In this document: in pieces, positions 508-25,681 of the stretch
How the letters are laid out: each line of letters opens with the position of its first letter
Position numbering within the stretch: position 1 is the first letter of the stretch
DNA from: a virus
Reading direction: 5' to 3' (one strand)
IMG/VR virus record: IMGVR_UViG_3300005511_000074
Span: 1 to 25,681 of that record
DNA: 25,681 bases
The notes under the pieces: generated by a model
What the model was told of the DNA's origin: nothing
Database searches by the model: none
Seen by the model: the letters and a program-made list of their open reading frames with translations, nothing else
Position numbers and translations under genes: made by a program

Positions 508-858
508 TTACAGATACTCCGCGAAGCGAAGTTTGAACATCGCGGCCAAAGTGTCGCCGTACATGTTGAGTATCAGAACGTGATGGGACGACTCGCCGCC
601 AAGAGCTTTCTGTGTGTGGCGCTTTGTCGCAAAGTCGTAGCTCGAATAGGTTCTCGTTTCCATATCGAGGATCATGTTCCACTGGCCGGGTGAGTCGTCG
701 TGATGCGCCGCAGTTTGGGGATGCTCTTCGCCAAATGTTGCCAAGAGCCAATCGTAAATCTCTTCCGCTACCTCAAGTTCTGCAAACTTGCACACTGCGA
801 CATAATAGCTCGAAGCTAGCGGTGCTCGCGGCGGGGACTGATGCAAATCAAATTTCAT
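508..858 (-). CDS. Small phage protein with C-terminal MFKLRF motif, 116 aa
   Basis: Function unknown. The protein begins MKFDLHQSPPR and ends with a strand VLILNM, then DTLAAMFKLRFAEYL. The same ending (hydrophobic strand, acidic turn, then M-F-K-L-x-F) recurs in the proteins at 2170, 2430 and 2886, so I treat them as a small paralogous family. The predicted Shine-Dalgarno GGAGATAGG sits inside a perfect 7-bp hairpin next to an AATAAATA box (see 863-887). The gene is divergent from the structured RNA and faces the ferredoxin. No membrane segment or catalytic motif is evident. Confidence 0.75.
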   Translation of the reverse strand: MKFDLHQSPPRAPLASSYYVAVCKFAELEVAEEIYDWLLATFGEEHPQTAAHHDDSPGQWNMILDMETRTYSSYDFATKRHTQKALGGESSHHVLILNMYGDTLAAMFKLRFAEYL

Positions 859-984: not shown

Positions 985-1765
985 AAAGTACAACGAAGAT
1001 TAACGGTCCAGATTAATCCTCATCTCAGATTTACAAACGTTTGGCAAATATATTTGGCAAACAAGAAACCTGCAAAGTTGCTCGCTGGACCCGACGGCTT
1101 TTGCAGGTTTTCCTCATTACACAATCCCAACTACAAACGCAGTAATACATAGCAATGACGCAAGTGAGCATGCGCTCCCCGGTAGTTGCTAGGTAGGCCA
1201 AAGGCGAAAGGTTAGACCTAGCATCCGTGCTAGGCGAGAGGTCCGTTGTCAAAACCAAAACATTATCGCCATTAGCGAAAGCTATTAAGTGCGCTGGACA
1301 GTCTAAGTGGTCCAGATAAATGCACAGGACGAGGTTGCCCAGATAATATCTGCAAGCAATGACAAGCTTAGACGGTACAGAACAGGTTGATCTTCCTGTG
1401 ATAACGTCAGAAGAGGGTGTCCAAGGGCCACAAACATTTCACGGAATGTTTGGAACATAATCCTAATATCCCATCACCGGGAAGAGGGATTAGAATTCCT
1501 TTGATTCCAATTTCTGCTGTTTACTTGTTTTGATATATCACGCACCTGAGCTACTAACGCAGCTCAGGGAACTTACTCGCCGCTCTGCTAGCTCATAAGT
1601 TCAGTTCGCAGAAACTAGTACCTGACTTAACGCGAAACGAGTAAATGAGTTCGCAGAACGAAGACGAGGTAGAGCAGTTTGTTGTAGCGAAGCGGAAACA
1701 AACTCCCAGACGTTCCACTGAATATGTCTTGTGGCCCTACCTATGACTCTGCGAAAGCCAGTTAA
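985..1765 (+). ncRNA. Candidate large structured phage RNA (about 750 nt)
   Basis: No coding potential, but very dense pairing. 5' part: 11-bp stem 1066-1076/1100-1110; 8-bp stem 1187-1194/1216-1223; UAGC-GAAA-GCUA at 1273-1284; two-part hairpin 1289-1292/1322-1325 with 1294-1299/1310-1315; CAGAU/AUCUG at 1340-1352; ACAGG/CCUGU 1382-1386/1395-1399. 3' part: closing helix AGGGCCACAA (1424-1433) with UUGUGGCCCU (1729-1738), inside which lie hairpins 1431-1439/1444-1452, 1473-1493, 1545-1552/1561-1568, a long arm 1582-1596/1645-1675, and 1676-1683/1697-1704. GAAA loops and the UCCG loop make sense only on the plus strand. Size, phage location and multibranched form recall the GOLLD and ROOL RNA classes, but I cannot assign a family. 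No rho-independent terminator is seen at the 3' end. Exact ends are uncertain. Confidence 0.65.
1034..1062. repeat. Nested palindromes at the start of the RNA region
   Basis: CAAACGTTTG (1034-1043) and CAAATATATTTG (1045-1056) are perfect palindromes, and TTTGGCAAA occurs twice in direct orientation (about 1040-1048 and 1053-1061). They could be an operator for a dimeric DNA-binding protein or 5' hairpins of the RNA. Confidence 0.4.
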
Positions 1766-1828: not shown

Positions 1829-2173
1829 ATGACACTTCTCTTTCCAATACTTTCCATTGCTGGCTTGGCGGCCTGCGCATTTTTGTTTTGCAGAGCTGTT
1901 AGGTACAGCTTCGAGGAAGAGCGCAAGCAGAAGTCGGCTCAACTGGAGAGCGACTGGGATGCATTTAAGGAAGCCACGCGAGCATTTCGCTTCCGCATTG
2001 AAACAGGGTACAGAACCTTTTACACAAACGATTATCGAGTTTCTGATGGCTGTATTGCCTTCCATTCGGAGGGAGTTCAGATATTGGACGGCAGCGCCCC
2101 AGCCCTTGCGAAACATAAAGAGCGCGTGACTGCATCGGTTTATACGATCACAGAGCAGGGAGAACAGCAATGA
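1829..2173 (+). CDS. Small single-pass membrane protein, 114 aa
   Basis: Function unknown. One hydrophobic segment spans residues 3-22 (LFPILSIAGLAACAFLFC), followed by R and K residues and a charged, probably helical stretch EEERKQKSAQLESDW. The positive charges after the segment suggest the C-terminus is cytoplasmic, which argues against an i-spanin. First gene of a three-gene operon; its stop overlaps the next start as ATGA. Its last residues GEQQ are encoded by bases that include the ribosome binding site of the next gene, and the same GEQQ ending recurs in that next gene. An AGGGAG site precedes the ATG. Confidence 0.75.
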   Translation: MTLLFPILSIAGLAACAFLFCRAVRYSFEEERKQKSAQLESDWDAFKEATRAFRFRIETGYRTFYTNDYRVSDGCIAFHSEGVQILDGSAPALAKHKERVTASVYTITEQGEQQ

Positions 2174-2433
2174 CTGAAATCTACAAGGTATCTGTCAAGC
2201 CAAGCTCCGCTGAGCAATTGGGGGCGTTGAAGGATTGGTGCAACGCCAACACTGAGCAGTGGGGAACGACTCTCTCCGGTATGGACGAATTGAGAAAGGT
2301 GGTCGGCATGTTGAACTTCTATGTGGAATCTCAGAAGCGAGGACTTGATGCTGAGCGCCCTGAGGTTGTCTTCGAGTTCGCCAACGCTGAAGACGCCACC
2401 ATGTTCAAGCTGGTTTTCGGAGAACAACAATGA
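2170..2433 (+). CDS. Small phage protein with C-terminal MFKLVF motif, 87 aa
   Basis: Function unknown. It has an N-terminal strand (IYKVSVKP), a central helical part and the family ending VVFEFANAEDATMFKLVFGEQQ-type (hydrophobic strand, acidic turn, MFKLVF). Member of the paralogous set with 508-858, 2430-2843 and 2886-3182. Translationally coupled on both sides by ATGA overlaps; the start is preceded by AGGGAGAACAGCA within the upstream gene. Confidence 0.8.
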   Translation: MTEIYKVSVKPSSAEQLGALKDWCNANTEQWGTTLSGMDELRKVVGMLNFYVESQKRGLDAERPEVVFEFANAEDATMFKLVFGEQQ

Positions 2434-2843
2434 CAACAAAATGCAATAACACCGGCCCTGCGCAAGAGCTTTTGGCTGCAATCAGCTCAGCAACAACAGC
2501 CAGCGGACAGGCACAAGCATCAGCCAACGCAAGTGCCAGAAGCGGGGGATATAGCACTGTGTTTTTGGGAGCAATGGGCGCGACGAAATCACGCTATTTC
2601 AATGATGCAGAAAGTAGCTGCAAGACTTACGTGCTAGTTTACGAGGACTCACAAGATGAAATCTGGCAGACGCTTTTTGATTACATCGGTGATTTCAAAG
2701 TACGTAAGGTAGACCAGAGGGAGATTCACGTCTCAATCAGTAATGAAGAACTTGGCACGATGCTGATGCTGAAATTCGATTGTACTTTTAGTGAAACAGA
2801 CTATATGGATTGGCTGCACCCCCGCCGCAACGTTATGCGGTAA
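2430..2843 (+). CDS. Small phage protein, diverged MFKL-family member with tail-fibre-like insert, 137 aa
   Basis: Function unknown. The C-terminal half (YVLVYEDSQDEIW through EELGTMLMLKF) aligns by pattern with the MFKL family, with a longer tail ending in WLHPRRNVMR. Residues 24-33, ASGQAQASAN, are identical to residues 63-72 of the tail fibre encoded at 6389-7900. The DNA matches at 28 of 31 bases (2498-2528 against 7685-7715), all differences at third codon positions. Last gene of its operon, ending 12 bases before a strong hairpin. Confidence 0.75.
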   Translation: MTTKCNNTGPAQELLAAISSATTASGQAQASANASARSGGYSTVFLGAMGATKSRYFNDAESSCKTYVLVYEDSQDEIWQTLFDYIGDFKVRKVDQREIHVSISNEELGTMLMLKFDCTFSETDYMDWLHPRRNVMR

Positions 2844-2854
2844 GACACACAAAC

Positions 2855-2879
2855 AACGGCAGGGATTATCCCTGCCGTT
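2855..2879. terminator. Hairpin terminator between convergent genes
   Basis: Perfect 11-bp stem AACGGCAGGGA / TCCCTGCCGTT with a TTA loop. It lies between the plus-strand operon ending at 2843 and the minus-strand gene ending at 2886. The following T-tract is short on the plus strand (TTT) and interrupted on the minus strand (GTTGTTTGTG), so it may work in both directions with modest efficiency. Confidence 0.75.
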
Positions 2880-2885
2880 TGACCT

Positions 2886-3182
2886 TCAGTTATCGCAGAA
2901 AGCGAGCCTGAACTGCAATGCCTCGCTTTCATCCAGCATAATGACCGTTGCACGATAATAGACCTTCTTGGTTTTCCTGCCGAACTTGCCCGCTTTGCTG
3001 TCGTAGTCCTGCTCAGATTCCTCAAATCTGCTGATTGCGTATCCCGCATGTTGCACACCGCAATCGGCTAACCAATTATCTACGTCCACACCCTCGTTCA
3101 ATACAGCTTGTTCGACCTCGCTCTGAAACGCAAACTGATAAGCAGCAGCGCTTGTAGTCAATTCCCATCGTTCATTAACCAC
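2886..3182 (-). CDS. Small phage protein, MFKL-family member, 98 aa
   Basis: Function unknown. It ends with a strand YRATVIML, then DESEALQFRLAFCDN, matching the family pattern of 508-858 and 2170-2433 (F-R-L-x-F in place of F-K-L-x-F). The start is GTG at 3182, preceded by AGGGGG; an ATG start would need moving inside the reading frame. It follows the AAA+ gene by 11 bases, so the two are probably co-transcribed. The hairpin at 2855-2879 closes the operon. Confidence 0.75.
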   Translation of the reverse strand: MVNERWELTTSAAAYQFAFQSEVEQAVLNEGVDVDNWLADCGVQHAGYAISRFEESEQDYDSKAGKFGRKTKKVYYRATVIMLDESEALQFRLAFCDN

Positions 3183-3193
3183 GTGACCCCCTG

Positions 3194-3856
3194 TTATTGA
3201 TTGAGTTCTGCATACAGGTCTTGAACAGCGTCCATAGCTGCTCGCAGATTATTACGCCTGCCCAGAATTTTCGTGTGTATATAACCAGCTTCGTGATACT
3301 GCGGATCGTCTATTCCGCATTGCGAGAGCATTCCCTGTACAGCAGGCACAAACACATTCGGGTTGCTGGGGTTGAAGCTAATGCAACGGCTACGGTCTTG
3401 AACGGAATTCTCGATCTTGTCGAGGTGGTTCGTCGTCATGATGAACACCGCATTTGCCTTTGCATAATCCATCAGCGAACGCAGCTCTTCCCGTGCATCT
3501 TTGGTGAGCTGATCGACCTCATGCAGAATCACGTAATGCAGTTGGTTGCCGTTAGCGGGGATGAAGCCGATCCCGCTAGTGATGTTCGACAGCAGACCAA
3601 CACCATTGTTGGGCGCTCTGACATGCTCGATGCGTGATTGCGCTTTCGTGCCTGTCAGCGTGCGTTCCATCGCATCTGGAATCAGCTCTGCACAGGTCGA
3701 TTTGCCTGTACCAACAACGCCTTCCAGAATGATCCCGTTCTTAGTGTTCAGCGGGAAGGCGAACTTCTGCGTAACGATGTTTTGTACGACACGTCGCGCG
3801 TCAGCATTCGGAAATACGAAGTCATCCAGCGAAGCTGGGGCCTTGATAATTGCCAT
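3194..3856 (-). CDS. Clamp-loader-like AAA+ ATPase without collar domain, 220 aa
   Basis: Predicted ATPase related to the small clamp-loader subunit (RFC, T4 gp44), which opens sliding clamps on DNA. Walker A GVVGTGKS at 46-53; Walker B region VILHEVDQ at 109-116; sensor 1 TTN at 141-143; SRC arginine finger S156-R157-C158, the hallmark of clamp loaders; a sensor 2-like GRRNNLR near 199-205. Two oddities: the usual first Asp of the DExD box is His112 (HEVD), and the protein stops at 220 residues, about 100 shorter than gp44, so the collar domain is missing. ATG at 3856 has a weak AAAGAGAA site. It lies between the 243-aa gene and the 98-aa gene in one operon. I am confident of the family, not of the partner: no sliding clamp is seen here. 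Confidence 0.88.
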   Translation of the reverse strand: MAIIKAPASLDDFVFPNADARRVVQNIVTQKFAFPLNTKNGIILEGVVGTGKSTCAELIPDAMERTLTGTKAQSRIEHVRAPNNGVGLLSNITSGIGFIPANGNQLHYVILHEVDQLTKDAREELRSLMDYAKANAVFIMTTNHLDKIENSVQDRSRCISFNPSNPNVFVPAVQGMLSQCGIDDPQYHEAGYIHTKILGRRNNLRAAMDAVQDLYAELNQ

Positions 3857-3876
3857 TGTGGATTCTCTTTAATCGT

Positions 3877-3898
3877 GGCCGGGCGCGCACACCCGGCC
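3877..3898. other. Perfect 7-bp GC-rich hairpin between two operon genes
   Basis: GGCCGGG / CCCGGCC with an 8-base loop lies between the stop of the 243-aa gene (3912) and the start of the ATPase (3856). There is no T-tract on either strand, so it is not a standard terminator; it may set transcript stability or relative expression. Confidence 0.5.
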
Positions 3899-3911
3899 TG
3901 CTTTGTTGTTG

Positions 3912-4643
3912 TTAGATGGTCTTACCGTAGGCTGCGTAAGCGGCATCGAGAGCTTTGTCGTCTTGCACAAACGCACGAACGGAAAACGAACCGTCTGGGT
4001 GTGCAGTGATGATTGCAAGCGCAGGTGCGTCAGCTTTGGGGCGTGCTGCTTCTTCGATGCGAACCTTGGTGTTGTCGATGTGCCCGAGCGACGTTTTCAA
4101 AGCGGCAGTGCGACCGCGTGTGACACTGGCAGCAAAGTCAGTGGATGCTTGCTTATCTGGCGCTGGCGTCTTGAGCAGTGCTTTGACGATGCCACCTTTG
4201 CCAGCAAGCCAGGTCTTGAACGCCGCAGGCTTGACCATCTCGTCGTTGATAGCAAGGCGCAGCAACCGCGCACGTTGCGACGTAGTAGTGTCCAGCAGCT
4301 CACCGAATGCCAGCTTTACGATCATGTGCTCAGGCTTGGTCTTGCCCGTGGTAATGGTCAAGTTTGCTTCGCTGCAATACTGCTCAAGGTTTTTACGCAG
4401 CGTCTCTTGATCTTTTGCCGATGCGTTCTCGAAAATGTAGAGAGCTGCGTATGCCTTGCTCAGTGCATCGTTGAGTGCGGCGCGATAACCAGCACCAGCA
4501 GATTTTGCTTCTGCAATGCTGTCATCGAATTTCTCGAAAATGGTTTTTGCCTTGCGGCTGTCGCGATTTTCGGTAGCTGCACCATATGCGATAATGGAGG
4601 TGCGCGGCTTGCGAATGTTTTGTGCGGTTACTGCTACGGTCAT
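3912..4643 (-). CDS. Unknown 243-aa protein heading the clamp-loader operon
   Basis: I do not recognise it. It looks soluble and mostly helical: charged N-terminus (residues 1-35), an Ala-rich helical stretch (36-90), a central segment with MIVKLAFGE at 107-115 that faintly echoes the MFKLxF ending of the small paralogues, a basic middle (TWLAGKGG, SVTRGRTAALK) and a C-terminal strand-rich part (ALAIITAHPDGSFSVRAFV). By position it matches where T4 keeps the clamp gene 45 upstream of the loader, but the sequence does not look like a sliding clamp. RBS GAGGGA is 7 bases from the ATG at 4643 and can pair with sequence overlapping the -10 of its own promoter. Confidence 0.8.
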   Translation of the reverse strand: MTVAVTAQNIRKPRTSIIAYGAATENRDSRKAKTIFEKFDDSIAEAKSAGAGYRAALNDALSKAYAALYIFENASAKDQETLRKNLEQYCSEANLTITTGKTKPEHMIVKLAFGELLDTTTSQRARLLRLAINDEMVKPAAFKTWLAGKGGIVKALLKTPAPDKQASTDFAASVTRGRTAALKTSLGHIDNTKVRIEEAARPKADAPALAIITAHPDGSFSVRAFVQDDKALDAAYAAYGKTI

Positions 4644-4648
4644 TTGAT

Positions 4649-4724
4649 AATCCCTCTTATTAGTTTGGCTAGCGCGTTATTGCGTCAGTGAGGGAATTGT
4701 GATTCGGGCATTAATTTGCGTCAA
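4649..4724 (-). promoter_or_regulatory. Sigma-70-like promoter and RBS inverted repeat of the clamp-loader operon
   Basis: Minus strand: TTGACG (4724-4719), 17-base spacer, CACAAT (4701-4696). The arm AATTCCCTC (4698-4690) lies over the -10 and initiation region and complements GAGGGATT (4656-4649), the ribosome binding site, with one bulged base. RNA from this promoter would start after most of the left arm; RNA reading through from the fibre genes would contain it. Confidence 0.5.
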
Positions 4725-4845
4725 ACGGCCGAAAATTGATTTTGCCGTGATTTAGTATATAACCGCCGATCAAGGCAAAATACGCCAAAACTTGCTGAAA
4801 ATAGTTTGTAGCGGAGCAGATTCTTGCGCTAGACAGCGGGATTTG

Positions 4846-4860
4846 TAGGAAATTTTCCTA
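4846..4860. repeat. 15-base perfect palindrome upstream of the HEPN-like gene
   Basis: TAGGAAATTTTCCTA: two 7-base arms around a central T, ending 29 bases before the GTG start. This is a possible operator for a dimeric regulator of the gene at 4890 or of the divergent operon. Confidence 0.4.
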
Positions 4861-4889
4861 AATTCATCTTTTTGACCGGGAGTTAGGCC

Positions 4890-5471
4890 GTGCCATACGA
4901 ATACTCAGCAGAGCACCACGACTGGAACATGACCCTCCGTTCCGCGGGAGAGCTGTACGGCCTAAGCGTCAATCCACAAATGCTTGGGAACGGCGTACGC
5001 TTGTTCGCCCTGCTTACAGGGAGCATGGTCTTGTCGTTCGCTGCTATCGAGAGCTTTTCCGCCTCAGTGGCGTTCTGCATGGCAGACAACCCCCGCTACC
5101 CGGGCTTTGACTTTGACCGCTACAAGAAGACATTCAGGTTTGCGGAGAAGATGAACATGCTCATGGAACCCCACGGCATCAAACCTGACTGGGGTAGCGG
5201 ACTGTTCCAGCGCATCGCAACCATGCAGCAGTGGCGCAACTTGGTCACACATGCGTCGCCCTATGAGATCGAGTCCACGCCCATTGCCGACTCCATGGAC
5301 GCACGGCATCTGCATACGCAAAGTCATCACGACCGTGAATATGCGCGCGGCTGCAACACGCAGGCAGCGAAGGACTACTACTCAACAGCGGTGGAATACA
5401 TTGAGATGATAAGGAAGACGACCGGCATCAATCCTGTGGCATCAGCCACGTACACGCCGGTCCAGCCTTAG
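4890..5471 (+). CDS. HEPN-like protein with RNxxxH motif, 193 aa
   Basis: Candidate RNase of the HEPN superfamily. A hydrophobic helix FAAIESFSASVAF (residues 50-62) resembles the AxEAF helix often seen in HEPN proteins, and residues 116-121 read R-N-L-V-T-H, the RNxxxH form of the catalytic R-x4-6-H motif. Start is GTG at 4890 with GGGAG 7 bases upstream. It is the only plus-strand gene beyond 2843, placed between the replication-type operon and the fibre genes. Its stop shares bases with the stop of the convergent gene at 5468. Such lone genes in phages often act in host takeover or exclusion of other phages, which is inference. No partner antitoxin (MNT type) lies next to it. Confidence 0.65.
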   Translation: MPYEYSAEHHDWNMTLRSAGELYGLSVNPQMLGNGVRLFALLTGSMVLSFAAIESFSASVAFCMADNPRYPGFDFDRYKKTFRFAEKMNMLMEPHGIKPDWGSGLFQRIATMQQWRNLVTHASPYEIESTPIADSMDARHLHTQSHHDREYARGCNTQAAKDYYSTAVEYIEMIRKTTGINPVASATYTPVQP

Positions 5472-6373
5472 AAGTTGGTTGTTTTCGTGAATGTGGGCGC
5501 GACTGGCAACGTAGGCAGGTTGTTTGAGTCAGTCGCACGGACCCACCCAAACGCTGCGTTAGTACCAAGTGCAACTGCGTCCGAGAATGCATTGGTGTGG
5601 CCGTCAGTCAGCGTCACAGTCACGGACATGCCGTTAGTGATCTTCTTCACGACAACGGCAATGGTGTTGGCCGTGTAGTTGGCCGTTGTCTGCGCAGTGT
5701 TCAGAACGGTCGTCCCGCCTGCTGTATAGGCGGAGTACGCGATTGAAGTAATCGCACCGTTACCGCCACCTTTACCAATGCTCGTACCACTGAACGTGAA
5801 CGTACCAAACGCGCTCAGAAACGAATTCCATGCGGTGTTCTGGGTTGTTGACGTGTTGGGGTGTGCGAGTGTCATGTACACGTAGCCACCAGTATTGAAG
5901 AATGCTGACGCACTTGCCTCTGACGCCCATGTGAACGACGCCACGCACGCGATTGCGGCACTCGCACTGGAACCCCACGCAGTAGCACGAGTGATTGTCG
6001 TATTTGCTACTGGCGTAGTGTTGGTCACGTTGGCAACATTGATAACCAGCCTGTTGGTTGAGCATGTGTTTGCCACTGACGCATACAAGGACGTTGCAGC
6101 AGCGTTCCACGTTGCACCACCGGCAATGACCGGCAGCACGGCCCCAGATGGAGCAGAGCCTGTTTGGTGTGTGTATGCGCGTGAAATGTCCGTGTACAAG
6201 TTCTGCCAGTCAGCGGCCTTGATCGGCTTACCAAACACCACTGGCGCACTTATGAGCGTCTGCCCATAGCCGAACGTCGAACCTAACGACGCAGCGCCCA
6301 TCACGGAACTGATAGTCGATTGGATCGAGTTGTAATCCGCTGCGGGAACGGCAGTTGAAACTGCTCCTGTCAT
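5468..6373 (-). CDS. Putative tail/fibre-associated virion protein, 301 aa
   Basis: Not recognised beyond general virion character. It is rich in Thr, Ala, Ser and Asn, with few charged residues. Residues 1-75 contain PIKAADWQNLYTDI, a Trp-containing helix seen in phage virion proteins; the remainder looks beta-rich (VNVANVTNTTP, GGYVYMTL, SVTVTLTDGHTNAF). It ends the long minus-strand virion transcript, right after the 503-aa fibre gene. Its TAA overlaps the TAG of the convergent HEPN-like gene, and there is no terminator between them, so virion transcripts could run antisense into that gene. Confidence 0.7.
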   Translation of the reverse strand: MTGAVSTAVPAADYNSIQSTISSVMGAASLGSTFGYGQTLISAPVVFGKPIKAADWQNLYTDISRAYTHQTGSAPSGAVLPVIAGGATWNAAATSLYASVANTCSTNRLVINVANVTNTTPVANTTITRATAWGSSASAAIACVASFTWASEASASAFFNTGGYVYMTLAHPNTSTTQNTAWNSFLSAFGTFTFSGTSIGKGGGNGAITSIAYSAYTAGGTTVLNTAQTTANYTANTIAVVVKKITNGMSVTVTLTDGHTNAFSDAVALGTNAAFGWVRATDSNNLPTLPVAPTFTKTTNF

Positions 6374-6388
6374 GATTCGTCCCCCTGA

Positions 6389-7900
6389 TTAGCTGTACAC
6401 GCCTGTCTTCGCAAACCACTTCGTTGATGAAGTGCTTACGAAGTCCACTGAGCTATTAGCGCTCAATGTCAGCGTGCCATTTGTGACGCCGTTCAGGATC
6501 GAACTGACCATGACGTAGACAATGATCGCATTCGCTGTGTCGTTAATCAGCGTTACAGTCCTACCCACGGCAGCGTTTGGCAGTACAACGCCAGAGCCAG
6601 CCGTTGAGCTAGTCACACAAGCGAGAGTGCCGCTAACCGCGTTAGACGTGGCTTGGTTATTGCCAGTCGCTGCCATAGTCGTGACAGTCGTGTAGTACGA
6701 ACCTGCGGATACCACTGGTGACGTTACAGTGCCTGTGAATGTTGGTGATGCCAACGGGGCCAATGATGTGTCTGTTGGGTGAACGTGGTCAGCACGAGCA
6801 AACTTGGTAGCAGTGCCGATTGCAGCAGTGCCGTCCATGTTTGGAGTGGTGCTGCTTGCCTGACCCAGAACAAATGCTGTGGTGGCAATCTGCGTTGTGT
6901 TCGTGTTCGCTGATGCCGTGGGAGCAGTTGGCGTACCCGTGAAAGCTGGCGACACCAGTGATGCGTAACCAACAACAGTTTGCAATGCCTGTTGCGCGTA
7001 ATACGCTGCTGAATAGAACGTACCGTCAACAGTACCGCTTGGCTGACTCGCCCATTTCTGTGCCAGTGTTGCACTGGCTGCTGCGTCGCTGGCTTGTGTA
7101 CCAGCAGTGGTAGCGCTACCTGCGGCATTGGTTGCACTGGTAGCTGCACTGGTAGCTGACAGAGTGGCACTCGCAGAAGCCGCTTCTGCTGTTGCGTCCT
7201 GATCTTGCCAACCCGTTGATGTGTAGACACGAATCTCGGGTGGTACTTTGGTTGTGTTCAGGTACTCAGCACCCACAACCAGCGGGTTGCCCTGATTGTC
7301 TACTGTTGGGTCGGTAGCGTGCGCACCCAGCCATGCTTTATTGAACGACGCAAGGCCGATGGTAAGAGCGGTTGCACTAGTTGCGGCATTGGTCGCACTG
7401 AGCGCGGCATTGTCAGCTTGAGTTGATGCTGTGGTCGCTGATGCGGCAGCTTGGGCGGCGCTGTTGGAAGCATTGATTGCTGATGTGTTTGCAGCAGTTG
7501 CAGACGTGGAGCTTGCGTTGGCGCTGTTAGCAGAGCTGTTGGCGGACGTGCTTGCGTTTGACGCACTGGTCGCTGCCTGAGTAGCACTGTTGGCTGCTGC
7601 TGTGGCGCTGTTTGCTGCATTGGTCGCCTGAGTAGCTGCCGCACTTGCACTGGTTTGTGCTTGTGCTGCATTGCTCGCTGCGTTGTTGGCTGATGCCTGT
7701 GCTTGCCCGCTGGCTGCGGTTGCCGTGTCCGCTGCCTGTACTGCGGTCTCTACGGTCGCCTCTGTGTCAGCAATGATGTTCAGCATGTCCTGCAATGTGC
7801 CGCTGAGCTGCAATGGCAGGAAGGGACCGAAGCTAGCAACGACTTGGCTTTGATCTTCCGTGAATGTGAAGATCAGTTCGTTTTCTGGTGTTGTGCTCAT
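6389..7900 (-). CDS. Tail fibre protein with long Ala/Ser/Asn heptad region, 503 aa
   Basis: Probable trimeric receptor-binding fibre. Residues 1-50 form a globular start (FTFTEDQSQVVASFGPFLP). Residues 50-180 and 238-280 are A/S/T/N-rich repeats typical of the shaft coiled coils of phage side fibres. Residues 196-230 (DPTVDNQGNPLVVGAEYLNT) form a motif common in fibre shafts. Residues 351-378 carry GTAAIGTATKFARADHVHPTD, a repeat frequent in phage fibres, followed by PTFTGTVTSP repeats. ATGA overlap with the 125-aa gene upstream. A 10-residue piece of the shaft is also found in the small protein at 2430. Confidence 0.88.
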   Translation of the reverse strand: MSTTPENELIFTFTEDQSQVVASFGPFLPLQLSGTLQDMLNIIADTEATVETAVQAADTATAASGQAQASANNAASNAAQAQTSASAAATQATNAANSATAAANSATQAATSASNASTSANSSANSANASSTSATAANTSAINASNSAAQAAASATTASTQADNAALSATNAATSATALTIGLASFNKAWLGAHATDPTVDNQGNPLVVGAEYLNTTKVPPEIRVYTSTGWQDQDATAEAASASATLSATSAATSATNAAGSATTAGTQASDAAASATLAQKWASQPSGTVDGTFYSAAYYAQQALQTVVGYASLVSPAFTGTPTAPTASANTNTTQIATTAFVLGQASSTTPNMDGTAAIGTATKFARADHVHPTDTSLAPLASPTFTGTVTSPVVSAGSYYTTVTTMAATGNNQATSNAVSGTLACVTSSTAGSGVVLPNAAVGRTVTLINDTANAIIVYVMVSSILNGVTNGTLTLSANSSVDFVSTSSTKWFAKTGVYS

Positions 7901-8274
7901 TGGCCACCCCCTTGCAACAGTGGGTTAGCCAAGAAGCGATACCAAACAGGACGAGTTGGGAGAATCGCACCAGCATCTGTGGTTGCTGCAATGAGCAACT
8001 GAACCTTACCAGTAGGCCAGGTATCAGTAGGCGCAGGATTGGCAAGCTGCACCAAGCCGTTTGTCTGCGGCAGTGCTGGGTTGGAGAGGTTCGTGACTAC
8101 AAGGTTAGAGATGAGCTTTGTTCCAGATTGATCGTAGAACGCAGCACGGATACTCCAATTGCTGTAGTCAGGTTGGTTTTTATTGAGGCCAGCATTACCA
8201 CCTGCAACGGGACCGTTTAGCTGCAACGTCCCGACGCGGTTGTATGAGCTGCCTAGAAAGAAATCGTAGGCCAT
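7897..8274 (-). CDS. Putative fibre-base virion protein, 125 aa
   Basis: Not firmly recognised. A small probably beta-sandwich protein: MAYDFFLGSSYNRVGTLQL, then DYSNWSIRAAFYDQSGTKL, a pattern reminiscent of receptor-binding baseplate proteins, and a C-terminal VQLLIAATTDAGAILPTRPVWYRF strand region. ATG at 8274 lies 2 bases beyond the HNH stop, and the gene is ATGA-coupled to the 503-aa fibre, suggesting the two work together in host recognition. Confidence 0.65.
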   Translation of the reverse strand: MAYDFFLGSSYNRVGTLQLNGPVAGGNAGLNKNQPDYSNWSIRAAFYDQSGTKLISNLVVTNLSNPALPQTNGLVQLANPAPTDTWPTGKVQLLIAATTDAGAILPTRPVWYRFLANPLLQGGGQ

Positions 8275-8276
8275 GT

Positions 8277-8774
8277 TCAGTCCACCGTTTTTGTTGTTGT
8301 TGTGAGTGGGCTGACGACAACCCCGTAATGCGCCATCTGCGCGTCTGTTACTGCTTGTGCTGCCTCTTCCTTGGTATCGAACGTACCAAGATGCTTGCGC
8401 TCTTTGCTAAGGGTGCAAGCGGCAACCCATCTCTTACTGGTCTTTGATTGATACACACCTCTATAGCCAGACTTGTTGTCCTTCCTCATGCCCGCGTTGC
8501 GGTTGTTCTCAGCAGCAGTGACGGGACGCAGGTTGCACCAACGGTTGTCTGAGCGAACACGGTTGATGTGGTCAACATATTTCTCCGGGAAAGAACCCGT
8601 CATGTAGAGGAAAGCTAGGCGGTGCGCGTAGTAGGTTTCTCGATCAATGACGATGCGAACATAGCCATGTGAAGAGACGATGCCAGCTACTTCGCCTGTG
8701 GGATGTGTGAAATGACCTGTCTCTGGGTCGTATGAAAGGAGGCTCAGTAACCTCTCTTGTGTGATGTTCTTCAT
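8277..8774 (-). CDS. HNH homing endonuclease with AP2-like domain, 165 aa
   Basis: Free-standing homing endonuclease. N-terminal HNH core: AHRLAF at 50-55, then V-D-H-I-N at 67-71 and DNRWCNLRPVT at 75-85. C-terminal AP2-type DNA-binding part: SGYRGVY at 102-108 and a Trp-containing strand through HLGTFDTKEEAAQA. I take the ATG at 8774, since the upstream extension is low quality and contains the terminator and promoter. The RBS is weak (AAGA) and lies in a 15-bp inverted repeat. The gene separates virion genes that would otherwise be adjacent, so it probably inserted with its own control region. Confidence 0.92.
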   Translation of the reverse strand: MKNITQERLLSLLSYDPETGHFTHPTGEVAGIVSSHGYVRIVIDRETYYAHRLAFLYMTGSFPEKYVDHINRVRSDNRWCNLRPVTAAENNRNAGMRKDNKSGYRGVYQSKTSKRWVAACTLSKERKHLGTFDTKEEAAQAVTDAQMAHYGVVVSPLTTTTKTVD

Positions 8775-8848
8775 TTCTTGGTTTCTCGTTCTACGAGCGC
8801 TCCAATCCGCGCTTCTGTCGTATTTAGCGAGACGAACGAACCAAGAAA
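8774..8848 (-). promoter_or_regulatory. TAAATA promoter inside a long RBS-hiding inverted repeat of the HNH gene
   Basis: The left arm (minus strand 8848-8834, TTTCTTGGTTCGTTC) pairs with the right arm 8791-8774, which includes AACCAAGAAA running up to the A of the start codon: 10 bp, a 3-base bulge, then 5 bp. GCTAAATA (8828-8821) lies in the loop. Transcripts from this box would start near 8814 and lack the left arm. Confidence 0.65.
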
Positions 8849-21665: not shown

Positions 21666-24200
21666 TTATTCTTGTCGCAACTGTGGGTCTTGGCCCGGTG
21701 CGTCTGGTTCTGGTGCATCCAGCACGGCTTGCAGGAACTTGTCGTACTCCCCGCTTACCTGCACGTTGATGTTTGTCAGTGCGTCCTCAAGCGTCTGTGT
21801 CGTTGAGGTAAATGTCTCGTTGAACAGAGCCGCTTCTTGCTGAGGGGTAATCATGGCTTGCAGTGCTACTTGCTCGCGTTGGATTGCAGCTTGCAGGTAG
21901 AGCTTTTCGCGCTCTGCTTGCTGTTCCATTTGCAGCTTGGCTAGCTCGCGTTGGTGTGCCAGTTCCGCTTTCTTGTCGTCCTTCTGCGTCTCTGCTTGAA
22001 TGCGCATGGCATCCAGTTGTGCTTGACGCTCTTGCTTCTGCGCTGCTGCCTGTGCGTTGATCTTCGCAAGCTCGAACTGTGCTTGCACGTCAGGTGACAT
22101 TTGCGGTTGTGGTGGCTGTGGCATTGGTGCAGGTGGCTGCTGGAAGAACTCTTCTGGGTTCATGCCCATAGCCTTGACCATGCGTTGCAGCGTGTTGTGG
22201 ATCAAGTTGTAGTTGGTCAGACCTGATGGACCGCCCGGGGTCATCATTGCTTGCACTTGGAATTCGCTGATCGTTTTCAGATTAGCCAGCTCACGCGCAC
22301 GGTCACCAGTGCCAAGACCTACCTTAACTTCAACGCCATACTGGTTGTTGGCATCTACGGGGTTGGCATCGACCAGTTCCCCGTTCACGCGTACTTGCAT
22401 CAACTCGTCTTGGTATTGAGCAAGCAGCTTTTGTGTACGCAGTGCTAGTGGGCGCAAGCCTGTCTGTGCGAAGTCACGGCACATCAGCTTGATACGTTGC
22501 TCACTGCGCTCTGTCATGGCCATGTAGCCAGCAGCCGTTTCGTTGTTCACGTCTGCGTCACTACCTTGCGTTAGCTTCTGCACGCCGGTGCGTTCTTGCT
22601 TCATGGTGTCCAGCACTTGCATTACCGCTGTTGTGTTCGCAATGTCGCCACTCGTTGTTGGCAACACGGAAACAGCAGTCATGTCCTTGGTACGGACAAT
22701 GCCGCCCGGGCGAGAGTCCAACAGGTCGGAGATATTGACCTTTGTCTCGTCTACCAGCATCTGTGCATTGGCACCGAAGCTCACGTTGTCAACGAGCGAG
22801 CGTACAAGCTGTGTTTGCAGAGTTTGGATACCCTGTGCTTGCTCTGCTGTGGAGATACCGAATGCCAAGTGGGGCAGGCTGTTGCTAGAGATCATGATGA
22901 ACGGATTGCCGTCACATGGGCCGTTCTCAAGGATCGTGCCGCCACAACGAATGATCTTGCGCCATTCAGCAATGCCGGTCTTGCGGTAGTCCATCTTGAT
23001 ATAGCTCTCTACTACCGTTACTTCGCGCATTGATGTATCGCCGCTCTCATCGAAGTGTGGAGAGGCATATGCGCCTTGCAGCTCTGTACGGGTCAAGTAG
23101 GTAGCTGTCAGCTCTGAATCGAACTCGTTGCTGCTGAGCTGGTCTACCACGTCTGCATCGAAGCCCATTGCGCGCAGGTCTGAGAGAGTCAGTTTGCGTT
23201 GATGTGCCGCGTATCGCGCGTCTTCCGCGCTTCGTGCTCGTGGATCAATCAAGAACTCGTCAAGCGGAACGTTGATGATATTGATTTGACCGCGCGTGGT
23301 CTTGTCAGCATCGGGCCACTTGTGGATAACCACATCATGCAGACGTTCGCTGATGTGTGATGCTGTTGGGTCAAACTGTTGTGGTGCTTGCTGACCCACT
23401 GCCATTGCGTTTGCTTGCGCCTGACCCTGCTGGATCATGCTCAATGACTGGTAGTGTGGGTTCGCGTACTGGCGGTGCTTTACGACTGCAAAAGCACCGC
23501 TCTCTGCTTCAAGAGCTAATGCCGCGTATTGCAGGTCTGTAATTCCCTTGTAGTCAATGGACTCGGGTGTTAGGTCAGACTGCCAGTACACTTTGATGAT
23601 GCCTGCTGGTGCCATCAGTGCATCGTGGAACCACGTGCGGCAAATCTTGTAGTAGTCGTTCTGCTCACGCCATACGTGATTGACCATCGCTGTGGTCATC
23701 TCTGCTGACTTCTTCTTTGCTGGATGGCGTTCTTGGAAACGCACAACGTCGCTCTGATTGCCGCAGAACACGTCCATCAGGGATGGCAGTATCCAGTTGA
23801 TTGTGTCTTGTACTGATGTGTCTACGAACTTGGAGCGGTCTGGTAGTTGCTGCTCGAAACGTCCCTCTGGCTGTGCAAGAAAGAACTCATTGCTAATAGC
23901 AGCGCGGACGGAGATTTCATCTTGAACGAATGAACGTGCGTAGTTTTCATGCACATCCAGAATCGCAAGCACTTCCATGTCGGACAGTGGCTCTTGCGCT
24001 TTGCCGTCTTCATCGGCGCCTAGCTCGTCGGCTGCTACCTCGATGCTTGGGCCTTCTTCTTGTGGGAACAGACCGGGAAGCAAGCTCTGAACCATTACAA
24101 GTTCGTCTTCGCTTGGCTCGCTGCCCTTCTTCTGTGTGAACAACGGATCGTTGTCCTCGGAAATTGGTTGTTGGCTGCCTGTTTTTGTTTTTCTAGCCAT
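21666..24200 (-). CDS. Portal protein, 844 aa
   Basis: Dodecameric ring through which DNA enters and leaves the head. The body contains WILPSLMDVFCGNQSDVVRFQERHP and DYYKICRTWFHDALMAPAGIIKVYW near the start, SSNSLPHLAFGIS and SFGANAQMLVDET in the middle, and SDADVNNETAAGYMAMTERSEQRI, all typical of the large P22-like podovirus portal family. The C-terminal 120 residues form a Pro/Gln linker and a long Gln/Glu/Lys coiled coil, as in portal barrels. I choose ATG 24200 (AGGG 8 bases upstream) over a TTG 45 bases further up, which would place the promoter inside the gene. Confidence 0.9.
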   Translation of the reverse strand: MARKTKTGSQQPISEDNDPLFTQKKGSEPSEDELVMVQSLLPGLFPQEEGPSIEVAADELGADEDGKAQEPLSDMEVLAILDVHENYARSFVQDEISVRAAISNEFFLAQPEGRFEQQLPDRSKFVDTSVQDTINWILPSLMDVFCGNQSDVVRFQERHPAKKKSAEMTTAMVNHVWREQNDYYKICRTWFHDALMAPAGIIKVYWQSDLTPESIDYKGITDLQYAALALEAESGAFAVVKHRQYANPHYQSLSMIQQGQAQANAMAVGQQAPQQFDPTASHISERLHDVVIHKWPDADKTTRGQINIINVPLDEFLIDPRARSAEDARYAAHQRKLTLSDLRAMGFDADVVDQLSSNEFDSELTATYLTRTELQGAYASPHFDESGDTSMREVTVVESYIKMDYRKTGIAEWRKIIRCGGTILENGPCDGNPFIMISSNSLPHLAFGISTAEQAQGIQTLQTQLVRSLVDNVSFGANAQMLVDETKVNISDLLDSRPGGIVRTKDMTAVSVLPTTSGDIANTTAVMQVLDTMKQERTGVQKLTQGSDADVNNETAAGYMAMTERSEQRIKLMCRDFAQTGLRPLALRTQKLLAQYQDELMQVRVNGELVDANPVDANNQYGVEVKVGLGTGDRARELANLKTISEFQVQAMMTPGGPSGLTNYNLIHNTLQRMVKAMGMNPEEFFQQPPAPMPQPPQPQMSPDVQAQFELAKINAQAAAQKQERQAQLDAMRIQAETQKDDKKAELAHQRELAKLQMEQQAEREKLYLQAAIQREQVALQAMITPQQEAALFNETFTSTTQTLEDALTNINVQVSGEYDKFLQAVLDAPEPDAPGQDPQLRQE

Positions 24201-24228
24201 TGCGGTTTCCCTAATAGGTGTACCGCTG

Positions 24229-24236
24229 TATTTATT
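24229..24236 (-). promoter_or_regulatory. AATAAATA late-type promoter box of the portal gene
   Basis: Lies between the terminator after the capsid gene and the portal ATG, 29 bases upstream of it. A weak 5-bp pairing GCGGT/ACCGC flanks the RBS, but there is no strong hiding hairpin. Confidence 0.55.
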
Positions 24237-24251
24237 AACGCTCAAATGAAA

Positions 24252-24273
24252 AGAGGGAGCCGTAGCTCCCTCT
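24252..24273 (-). terminator. Strong rho-independent terminator after the capsid gene
   Basis: On the minus strand a perfect 9-bp stem AGAGGGAGC / GCTCCCTCT closes a UACG tetraloop (UNCG class with C-G closing pair), followed by TTTTCATTT. It lies 20 bases beyond the capsid stop and cuts scaffold-capsid transcripts off from the portal gene. Confidence 0.93.
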
Positions 24274-24292
24274 GTGTTTTCACTCGATCAGA

Positions 24293-25246
24293 TTAGGTGC
24301 CTGAGAGGTCACGGATCTGGAATGAAGCTGCTTCATTACGGTGTTCCAAAGTACCTTCCCAACGAATCTCGAAGTTCTTTGCGTCACCAGTTACTGCCAG
24401 CTCTTGCGTCTCGAAACCACGCAGAGTAGCCAGTGCCAGCATGCTTGTGTCAACACCATAAACAGCGTTGTCGCTGATCTGAGCCATGATTCGGTTTGGA
24501 ACGCACTTGACGTCACCGAAGTCTGAACCGTAGATGGTGTAAGCAGTGTTCAGTGTGTCGCCTTGACCGTTCACGACTTGCTGACGAGCAACGTTGCCGG
24601 TGAAAGCTGACTGCACTTGCTTTGTGTTTGGAGTCATCAACAGCATTGAAACGTTACCGCCTGCTGTGAATGTCTGTGACAGAGCTTGCTTCAGGATGGT
24701 TTCGCTGTATGCACGGGCTGTACCGGCTACTGGTGCTGTACCTGGCACACCATAGACTGGTGCTGAGGAACCTGTACCACCGAAGAAGTTTGTTGCCAGT
24801 GCGCCCTTCAGACCACGCATTGAGCGGCCTGTACCAACTGCACCAGCAGAAGCTGTTGAGCTAGCGATGATGTTAGCTTCAATGTTCTTCTTCAGTTCCT
24901 TCATTGTGTTGGCTGTAATACGTGCCAACTGGTTTGGACCTGCGTGGTTGACCGCTTCCTGTGTGTTGGACACTGAGAAAGCGTTCTTCAGGATCATGGT
25001 GTAGTTACCAAGACGAACTGTTGGAGCCTTAGCTGCGTATGAAGCGTCTGAACCTTCGATTGCACCACCACCAACTACTGCTGCTTGCAGTGTGTCAGTT
25101 TGCCACTCGTGGAATGTTGAGTTAGCGGAAACACGATCAATGGCGGATGCCAGTGGTGTGTCGGATGGAGCGATACTGAATACCTTTTCGATCAGGTCTT
25201 CACGGTTACCTACGGTACCGTATGTGGTTACTGTATTTGATGGCAT
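24293..25246 (-). CDS. Major capsid protein, SU10/DUF5309-like, 317 aa
   Basis: HK97-fold shell protein. The start MPSNTVTTYGTVGNREDLIEKVFSIAPSDTPLASA-like region (written in parts: TYGTVGNREDL, then SIAPSDTPLAS), FHEWQTDTL at about 46-54, and NYTMILKNAFSVSNTQEAVNHAG are the recurring features of the DUF5309 capsid family. The C-terminus has FGDVKCVPNRIM and FEIRWEGTLEHRNEAASFQI, also typical. AAGGA site 10 bases before ATG 25246. It follows the scaffold gene and is cut off from the portal by a terminator, consistent with the need for hundreds of copies. Confidence 0.92.
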   Translation of the reverse strand: MPSNTVTTYGTVGNREDLIEKVFSIAPSDTPLASAIDRVSANSTFHEWQTDTLQAAVVGGGAIEGSDASYAAKAPTVRLGNYTMILKNAFSVSNTQEAVNHAGPNQLARITANTMKELKKNIEANIIASSTASAGAVGTGRSMRGLKGALATNFFGGTGSSAPVYGVPGTAPVAGTARAYSETILKQALSQTFTAGGNVSMLLMTPNTKQVQSAFTGNVARQQVVNGQGDTLNTAYTIYGSDFGDVKCVPNRIMAQISDNAVYGVDTSMLALATLRGFETQELAVTGDAKNFEIRWEGTLEHRNEAASFQIRDLSGT

Positions 25247-25289
25247 CTTTATTATCCTTTTTATGAGCCAGATGGGTTTTGCGACCCCT

Positions 25290-25681
25290 TTATTTCTTCT
25301 TGGTCATCTGATGAAACAGATAATCCTCTAGGGTCTTCACGGACTGATCGCTCTTAAATCGATCGTTCCATGCTTTTGCTTCACGGGCTGCTTGTGTCTG
25401 AGCTTGTCGCTTTGCGAAGCCCGGATCACCAGTAGTTGCCGTACCAGCATTCAAAGTTTTGCCAGAGTTCTTGTTGTTGCTCTTTCTCTGGTCGTTAGCT
25501 TTTACTAACTGATCGTACAAGGCCGCTTTGTGTGCCACTGACACAATGCGTGCATCGAGAATCGAGTCCAGTTCCTGCGCGCTGAAACCTTCCTGTGTGA
25601 GATAGGCTTGCATGCGGGTCTTGTCTCGCTCTGCGACTTCAGGGTTCTTCCACGTTGGCAGTAGTTCAAGGAGCTTCTTTT
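25290..25681 (-). CDS. Capsid scaffolding protein (partial, N-terminus beyond right edge)
   Basis: Assembly scaffold, released after the shell forms. The frame is open to the edge of the window upstream of the first visible Met at 25613, reading LLELLPTWKNPEVAERDKTR, so the start is outside. The visible part is charged and helical (LTQEGFSAQELDSILDARIVSVAHKAALYDQLVKAN), as in podovirus scaffold proteins. It ends with a disordered basic tail (KKSNNKNSG-like, then FHQMTKKK) that would bind coat protein. It sits directly upstream of the capsid gene. Confidence 0.82.
   Translation of the reverse strand, partial: KKLLELLPTWKNPEVAERDKTRMQAYLTQEGFSAQELDSILDARIVSVAHKAALYDQLVKANDQRKSNNKNSGKTLNAGTATTGDPGFAKRQAQTQAAREAKAWNDRFKSDQSVKTLEDYLFHQMTKKK

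Follow-up and report, generated by a model that had tools for sequence, protein, structure and literature searches.

Evidence for a probable large structured RNA, present in two diverged copies, in the prophage of a temperate phage

What is encoded between positions 985 and 1765 of the 25,681-bp virus record analyzed here (the whole stretch, referred to as the window)? A sequence-only reading of this locus had proposed a large, ornate structured RNA encoded by a phage. We first consider whether the DNA is that of a phage. The left end of the window contains the beginning of a host ferredoxin gene (Pfam Fer4; minus strand), where a 45-bp attachment core occupies positions 76 to 120. A sister record, IMGVR_UViG_3300003775_000071 (G001; 36,561 bp), overlaps the window and is identical to it wherever the two were compared (window positions 2430 to 5991 and 24191 to 25681). 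G001 extends beyond the right end of the window to an integrase gene and an identical copy of the core, again where the ferredoxin gene begins (L089, positions 57 to 101). The insertion site of the prophage is in the first codons of the ferredoxin gene, and the unoccupied site is present in two genomes of the probable host genus (L094/L095). The window forms one end of a prophage that, judged by these coordinates, is ∼38.9 kb in size and encodes a portal, a major head protein, a DNA ejection protein, and a clamp-loader-like protein. Since the window and G001 form one integrated prophage, the attribution of the element to a phage was right. Relatives of the capsid are at most 43% identical, the identical phage aside, and a search of viral contigs for protein neighbors found G001 alone.

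Two further observations concern the genes of this prophage. A 39-bp inverted repeat (87%) lies at 2490 to 2528 and 7685 to 7723 of the window, inside two genes on opposite strands; both arms encode a similar ASGQAQASAN peptide, one of them within a long repeat-rich protein (6389 to 7900). In L089, positions 4275 to 5171 (minus strand) encode a protein of 298 aa in which a C..C..H motif is repeated several times, the repeats resembling small zinc fingers.

Does the locus at 985 to 1765 (copy A; plus strand, ends approximate) encode a protein? Its longest open reading frames (75 and 51 aa) are both on the minus strand and neither is convincing, in agreement with its description as gene-free. 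Folding of this interval was compared with that of dinucleotide shuffles and gave a z score of −4.2, with 0 of 100 shuffles equaling it; the interval 985 to 1830 gave −5.5, and three nearby control stretches gave values between −0.5 and +0.6. The minus strand of 985 to 1765 folds on a par with the plus strand (z score of −4.6), and folding energy alone therefore cannot assign the strand. Individual elements that had been pointed out are present in copy A. GAAA runs, described as loops, occur at several places; the 10-base long-range complement pairs AGGGCCACAA (1424 to 1433) with TTGTGGCCCT (1729 to 1738); and an extra 4-bp helix pairs GGGT (1415 to 1418) with ACCT (1739 to 1742). The complement of TGCTAGGT (1187 to 1194) with ACCTAGCA (1216 to 1223) is also there.

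Are there further copies of the element? A second one, copy B, lies inside the same prophage, in the part beyond the window (G001; L089, about 8005 to 8793, minus strand). It is 68% identical to copy A and on the same strand of the prophage. Conservation between the two covers ∼940 to 1765 of the window: it begins at a promoter-like sequence, ends at the last helix, where identity fades after about 1765, and is at background level on both sides. Within these limits it is patchy: some blocks are invariant, one of them with 38 identical nt, and stretches next to them cannot be aligned. A conserved reading frame, which the sequence-only reading had named as evidence against an RNA, is not evident across the copies: none of the 21 A/B indels inside the element (21/21) is a multiple of three, and every one breaks the frame.

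A genus-wide blastn search with copy A (E values of 3e-8 and 1e-6) independently revealed a third copy, C, in G440, from another species of the host genus. Copy C shares the upstream sequence TATAAATA and the 3' domain with A and B, and little of the 5' half. It lies next to a tyrosine-recombinase-like gene, where a contig of 5.2 kb ends, and the capsid gene of the prophage was sought in this genome and not found. The sequence following C at first suggested a 4.5S RNA, an idea given up because the Rfam scan reported none. A covariance model of the element, R1, also recovers C, which belonged to its training set. Across 398 family, 60 genus, 399 order, and 369 class genomes, R1 found copy C only; weak matches in the family-level scan looked like coding DNA that was similar by chance. 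Five conserved motifs, searched for as exact patterns in IMG/VR, returned G001 only, and blastn searches of phages and plasmids with A, and likewise with C, gave nothing useful. The element is very rare, with three copies across all searches. Great rarity would suit a decaying, nonfunctional sequence (an inactive mobile element or a dead gene, for example) that is conserved through common descent alone. We consider this very improbable: the patchy conservation, the compensatory changes described below, and the shared promoter-like sequence together indicate selection, and neither a protein relic nor terminal inverted repeats were seen.

Which helices are kept among the copies? Pairs predicted from copy A alone carried over to B or C not clearly better than a substitution-permuted null. 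Because these single-sequence pairs were mostly no better than the null in the homologues, the minimum-energy fold was not used as a model, and the structural picture drawn at first sight could not be trusted as a whole. The exceptional number of perfect helices noted at that stage is true of copy A but is not the conserved structure. One named helix, 1187 to 1194 with 1216 to 1223, failed when compared with copy B, in which the 5' arm is kept and the 3' arm is lost. The other, the long-range closing helix P1 (plus strand; 5' arm at 1424 to 1433, 3' arm at 1729 to 1738), fared better, being intact in A and kept in C (8 bp, a bulge, and 3 bp), but it has mismatches in B and is weak there.

The helices described from here on, all on the plus strand, rest on three sequences (A, B, and C) and were partly picked by eye from those same sequences. 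In the 5' half, a hairpin of the form GUUUG-G-CAAA...UUUG-G-CAAAC (1039 to 1062) is kept in B and is followed by a 15-bp hairpin (1066 to 1110) in which AAACCUGCAA and AGUUG pair with CGGCU, U, and UUGCAGGUUU. In the 3' half, helix Pa (ACAGG/CCUGU; 1382 to 1399) has a core that reads, by copy, CAGG/CCUG in A, AGGG/CCCU, and UGGG/CCCA in C, the last with the same loop UUGAUCUU; its pair-shuffle control was not significant (156/500). Every copy has the motif GAAGAGGG at two places in its 3' half (window positions 1410 to 1417 and 1481 to 1488); both occurrences are invariant, and one of them is borne by helix Pb (1458 to 1492). The three-copy comparison gives the outer stem of Pb as UAAUCC/GGAUUA in A, AAACCC/GGGUUU in B, and UAACC/GGUUA in C. 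Hairpin Pc (CCUGAGCU/AGCUCAGG; 1545 to 1568) has inner arms identical in all three copies and a longer loop in C. Helix Ph (AGUUUGUU/AACAAACU, in C AGUUUGCU/AGCAAACU; 1676 to 1704) lies in the 38-nt block identical between A and B. Pa, Pb, and Ph contain compensatory changes in addition to those of the pseudoknot helices below. A screen for local stems common to all three copies found 25, and column-shuffled alignments gave 10.9 ± 3.1; compensatory columns, totaled over this screen, were not clearly more numerous than in shuffles.

Between Pc and Ph lie two helices that cross. Helix Pd pairs 1569 to 1574 with 1597 to 1602 and reads GAACUU/AAGUUC in A, GAAUUU/AAAUUC in B, and GGAUUU/AAAUCC in C, with two compensatory pairs. 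Helix Pe pairs 1591 to 1595 with 1646 to 1650 and reads GCUCA/UGAGU in A and B and ACUCG/CGAGU in C, with one compensatory pair and one G-U/A-U change. Because Pe crosses Pd, the two would form a pseudoknot. An invariant helix, Pf (UUCGC/GCGAA), spans 1605 to 1636. Scored on alignment A4, pairing is complete in Pd, Pe, and Pf (48/48 cells), and three pairs are changed on both sides; when the partners were slid by one to three columns, two-sided changes fell to zero at every slide. The pair-shuffle control for the pseudoknot was modest (24/500), as three sequences would lead one to expect. The three-copy comparison supports a conserved 3' domain made of predicted hairpins and a pseudoknot.

Which strand would be transcribed? 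A promoter-like sequence, TTGACG-16-TATCAT and then GGTATAAATAAAAGTACAA, lies at 942 to 990 on the plus strand and is common to copy B (TTGACG-17-TATACT). The window and L089 each contain one exact occurrence of TATAAATA, in both cases at the RNA locus, and it is found again in copy C near position 4387 of L098. In the tabulated helices, every one-sided change can be accommodated by G-U pairing on the plus strand. The four A/B differences in the 1066 to 1110 hairpin illustrate this (U-A to U-G, G-C to G-U, and two U-G to U-A); they are allowed in a plus-strand RNA and would be A-C mismatches in the complement. From the G-U pattern and the promoter-like sequence, we infer that the RNA is made from the plus strand. 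A terminator was sought directly after copy A and not found; copy B has a strong hairpin and then a T run between the RNA and the next gene. We regard the structured element as real, probably selected, and probably transcribed.

Could the element instead act as DNA, as a replication origin or as a packaging or recombination site with hairpins? Equal folding of both strands and the location of the copies in intergenic phage DNA would be compatible with such a site. We think this improbable, given that the one-sided changes are compatible with G-U pairing on one strand only and that a promoter-like sequence is shared at the same position. In addition, efficient homologous recombination between the copies would need an identity higher than 68%, and copy C is in a genome where the capsid gene of the prophage was not found.

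A stronger rival, and the main one, comes from the genes that follow. Three small genes (114, 87, and 137 aa) lie downstream of copy A on the plus strand (1829 to 2843, from the open reading frame listing), and A and B are each immediately upstream of a small-gene operon on the same strand. The element could be an unusually long cis-acting leader that controls these operons, through a terminator in B and a hairpin at the ribosome-binding site in A. The hairpin and T run of B stand just before the ribosome-binding site of the gene, a CUCCCU...AGGGAG hairpin near 1786 to 1822 could hide that of the gene at 1829 in A, and both operons hold relatives of one small-protein group by our own reading of the sequences. 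We nonetheless consider a leader unlikely. The conserved unit ends ∼60 nt (A) and 165 nt (B) before the gene, the putative expression platforms of A and B are unrelated, and copy C is without a convincing gene in the ∼240 nt downstream, where the contig ends. Typical leaders are also far shorter than an element of ∼800 nt with a pseudoknotted 3' domain.

The small phage proteins show a feature of their own: several share a C-terminal motif like A-x-x-F-K/R-L-x-F, which suggests an expanded paralogous family. Members are encoded in the window at 508 to 858 (minus), 2170 to 2433 (plus), and 2886 to 3182 (minus) and in L089 at 3276 to 3557, 3554 to 3892, 3889 to 4182, and 7514 to 7885 (minus). 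Members of the group sit behind both RNA copies.

The reading that we favor, with a probability of about 0.6, is a stand-alone structured RNA of a new family. It is the most likely one because of the size, setting, 3'/5' pattern, and pseudoknot that resemble those of GOLLD and ROOL, together with the precedent of the phage ICP1 RNA, all compared below. The original proposal of a large structured phage RNA is supported by the copies, by blocks running from promoter to last helix, by compensatory changes, and by the lack of a conserved frame, but the helices that it named held only in part. The locus would be a gene for a large stand-alone structured noncoding RNA, carried by a temperate phage and belonging to a family outside Rfam. 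The shared promoter-like sequence would probably start transcription near 980, giving RNAs of about 750 to 800 nt for A and B and about 580 nt for C. Each RNA would combine a 5' half that varies with a 3' domain that is conserved. In this 3' domain, Pa, Pb, Pc, Pf, and Ph would be arranged around the pseudoknot (Pd crossing Pe), and P1 would close it in copies A and C. If GOLLD and ROOL are taken as a guide, the RNA may serve as an abundant scaffold or sponge in the phage cycle, possibly self-associating. A scaffold or oligomer function is a tentative suggestion, and the step to a self-assembling particle is an analogy only.

To our knowledge, few families of very large RNAs have been described in bacteria. 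We give roughly even odds to a more specific proposal, namely, that this is a new family of large pseudoknotted phage RNAs unrelated to GOLLD and ROOL, that the products of the two diverged copies in one phage could co-assemble or be differently timed, and that it has also moved outside the phage. If true, an unrelated family of the same size and setting would show that such RNAs arose in phages on more than one occasion, and its natural paralogues, two in a single genome, would offer a system with separately deletable copies.

How does the element compare with known large RNAs? Membership in GOLLD or ROOL, which its arrangement had been said to recall, found no support. At E ≤ 10, the window, G001, and G440 gave no match to the GOLLD covariance model (RF02032), in a search without an above-cutoff positive control, or to the ROOL model (RF03087), for which the controls were also silent and the negative is not fully controlled. 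Scans of A, B, and C with all of Rfam (4227 models; gathering and relaxed thresholds) gave no meaningful match, self-splicing introns included, and yielded just two chance-level eukaryotic matches. GOLLD RNAs are frequently near tRNA genes, which is not an absolute requirement; no tRNA genes were found in the window or L089.

GOLLD is defined by a conserved 3' region and a less conserved 5' region (PMC12286853), and the element shows a pattern of this type, its 3' domain aligning in A, B, and C and its 5' half only in A and B. This pattern, the similar size, and the prophage location would be expected of a very divergent GOLLD or ROOL RNA. With neither model matched (again, without a strong positive control) and no tRNA nearby, we judge that relationship to be very doubtful; of the two options originally offered, a divergent member or a new class, the latter is the better one. 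The element is like GOLLD in being large (many GOLLD RNAs exceed 800 nt), phage or prophage encoded, gene-free, and pseudoknotted, but it differs in having no covariance model match or tRNA neighbor, two copies per prophage, and a Burkholderiales host. It is like ROOL in being large, ornate, prophage encoded, and pseudoknotted, and it differs in the same lack of a model match and a tRNA neighbor. Recent work showed that GOLLD and ROOL RNAs each assemble into cages made of RNA only, whose purpose is unknown (PMC12286853). The lytic Vibrio phage ICP1 makes an abundant orf-less transcript of ∼800 nt between gp139 and gp140, with no assigned family (PMC7567579). That transcript differs in coming from a lytic phage, and its region was not matched by R1, but it resembles our element in being orf-less, of similar length, without an assigned RNA family, and from a phage without tRNA. 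The element is not a demonstrated member of GOLLD or ROOL; it is like them in size, setting, and layout, and across its three sequences it has the marks of a large structured phage RNA, being long, gene-free, and carried by a prophage and having conserved helices with compensated pairs.
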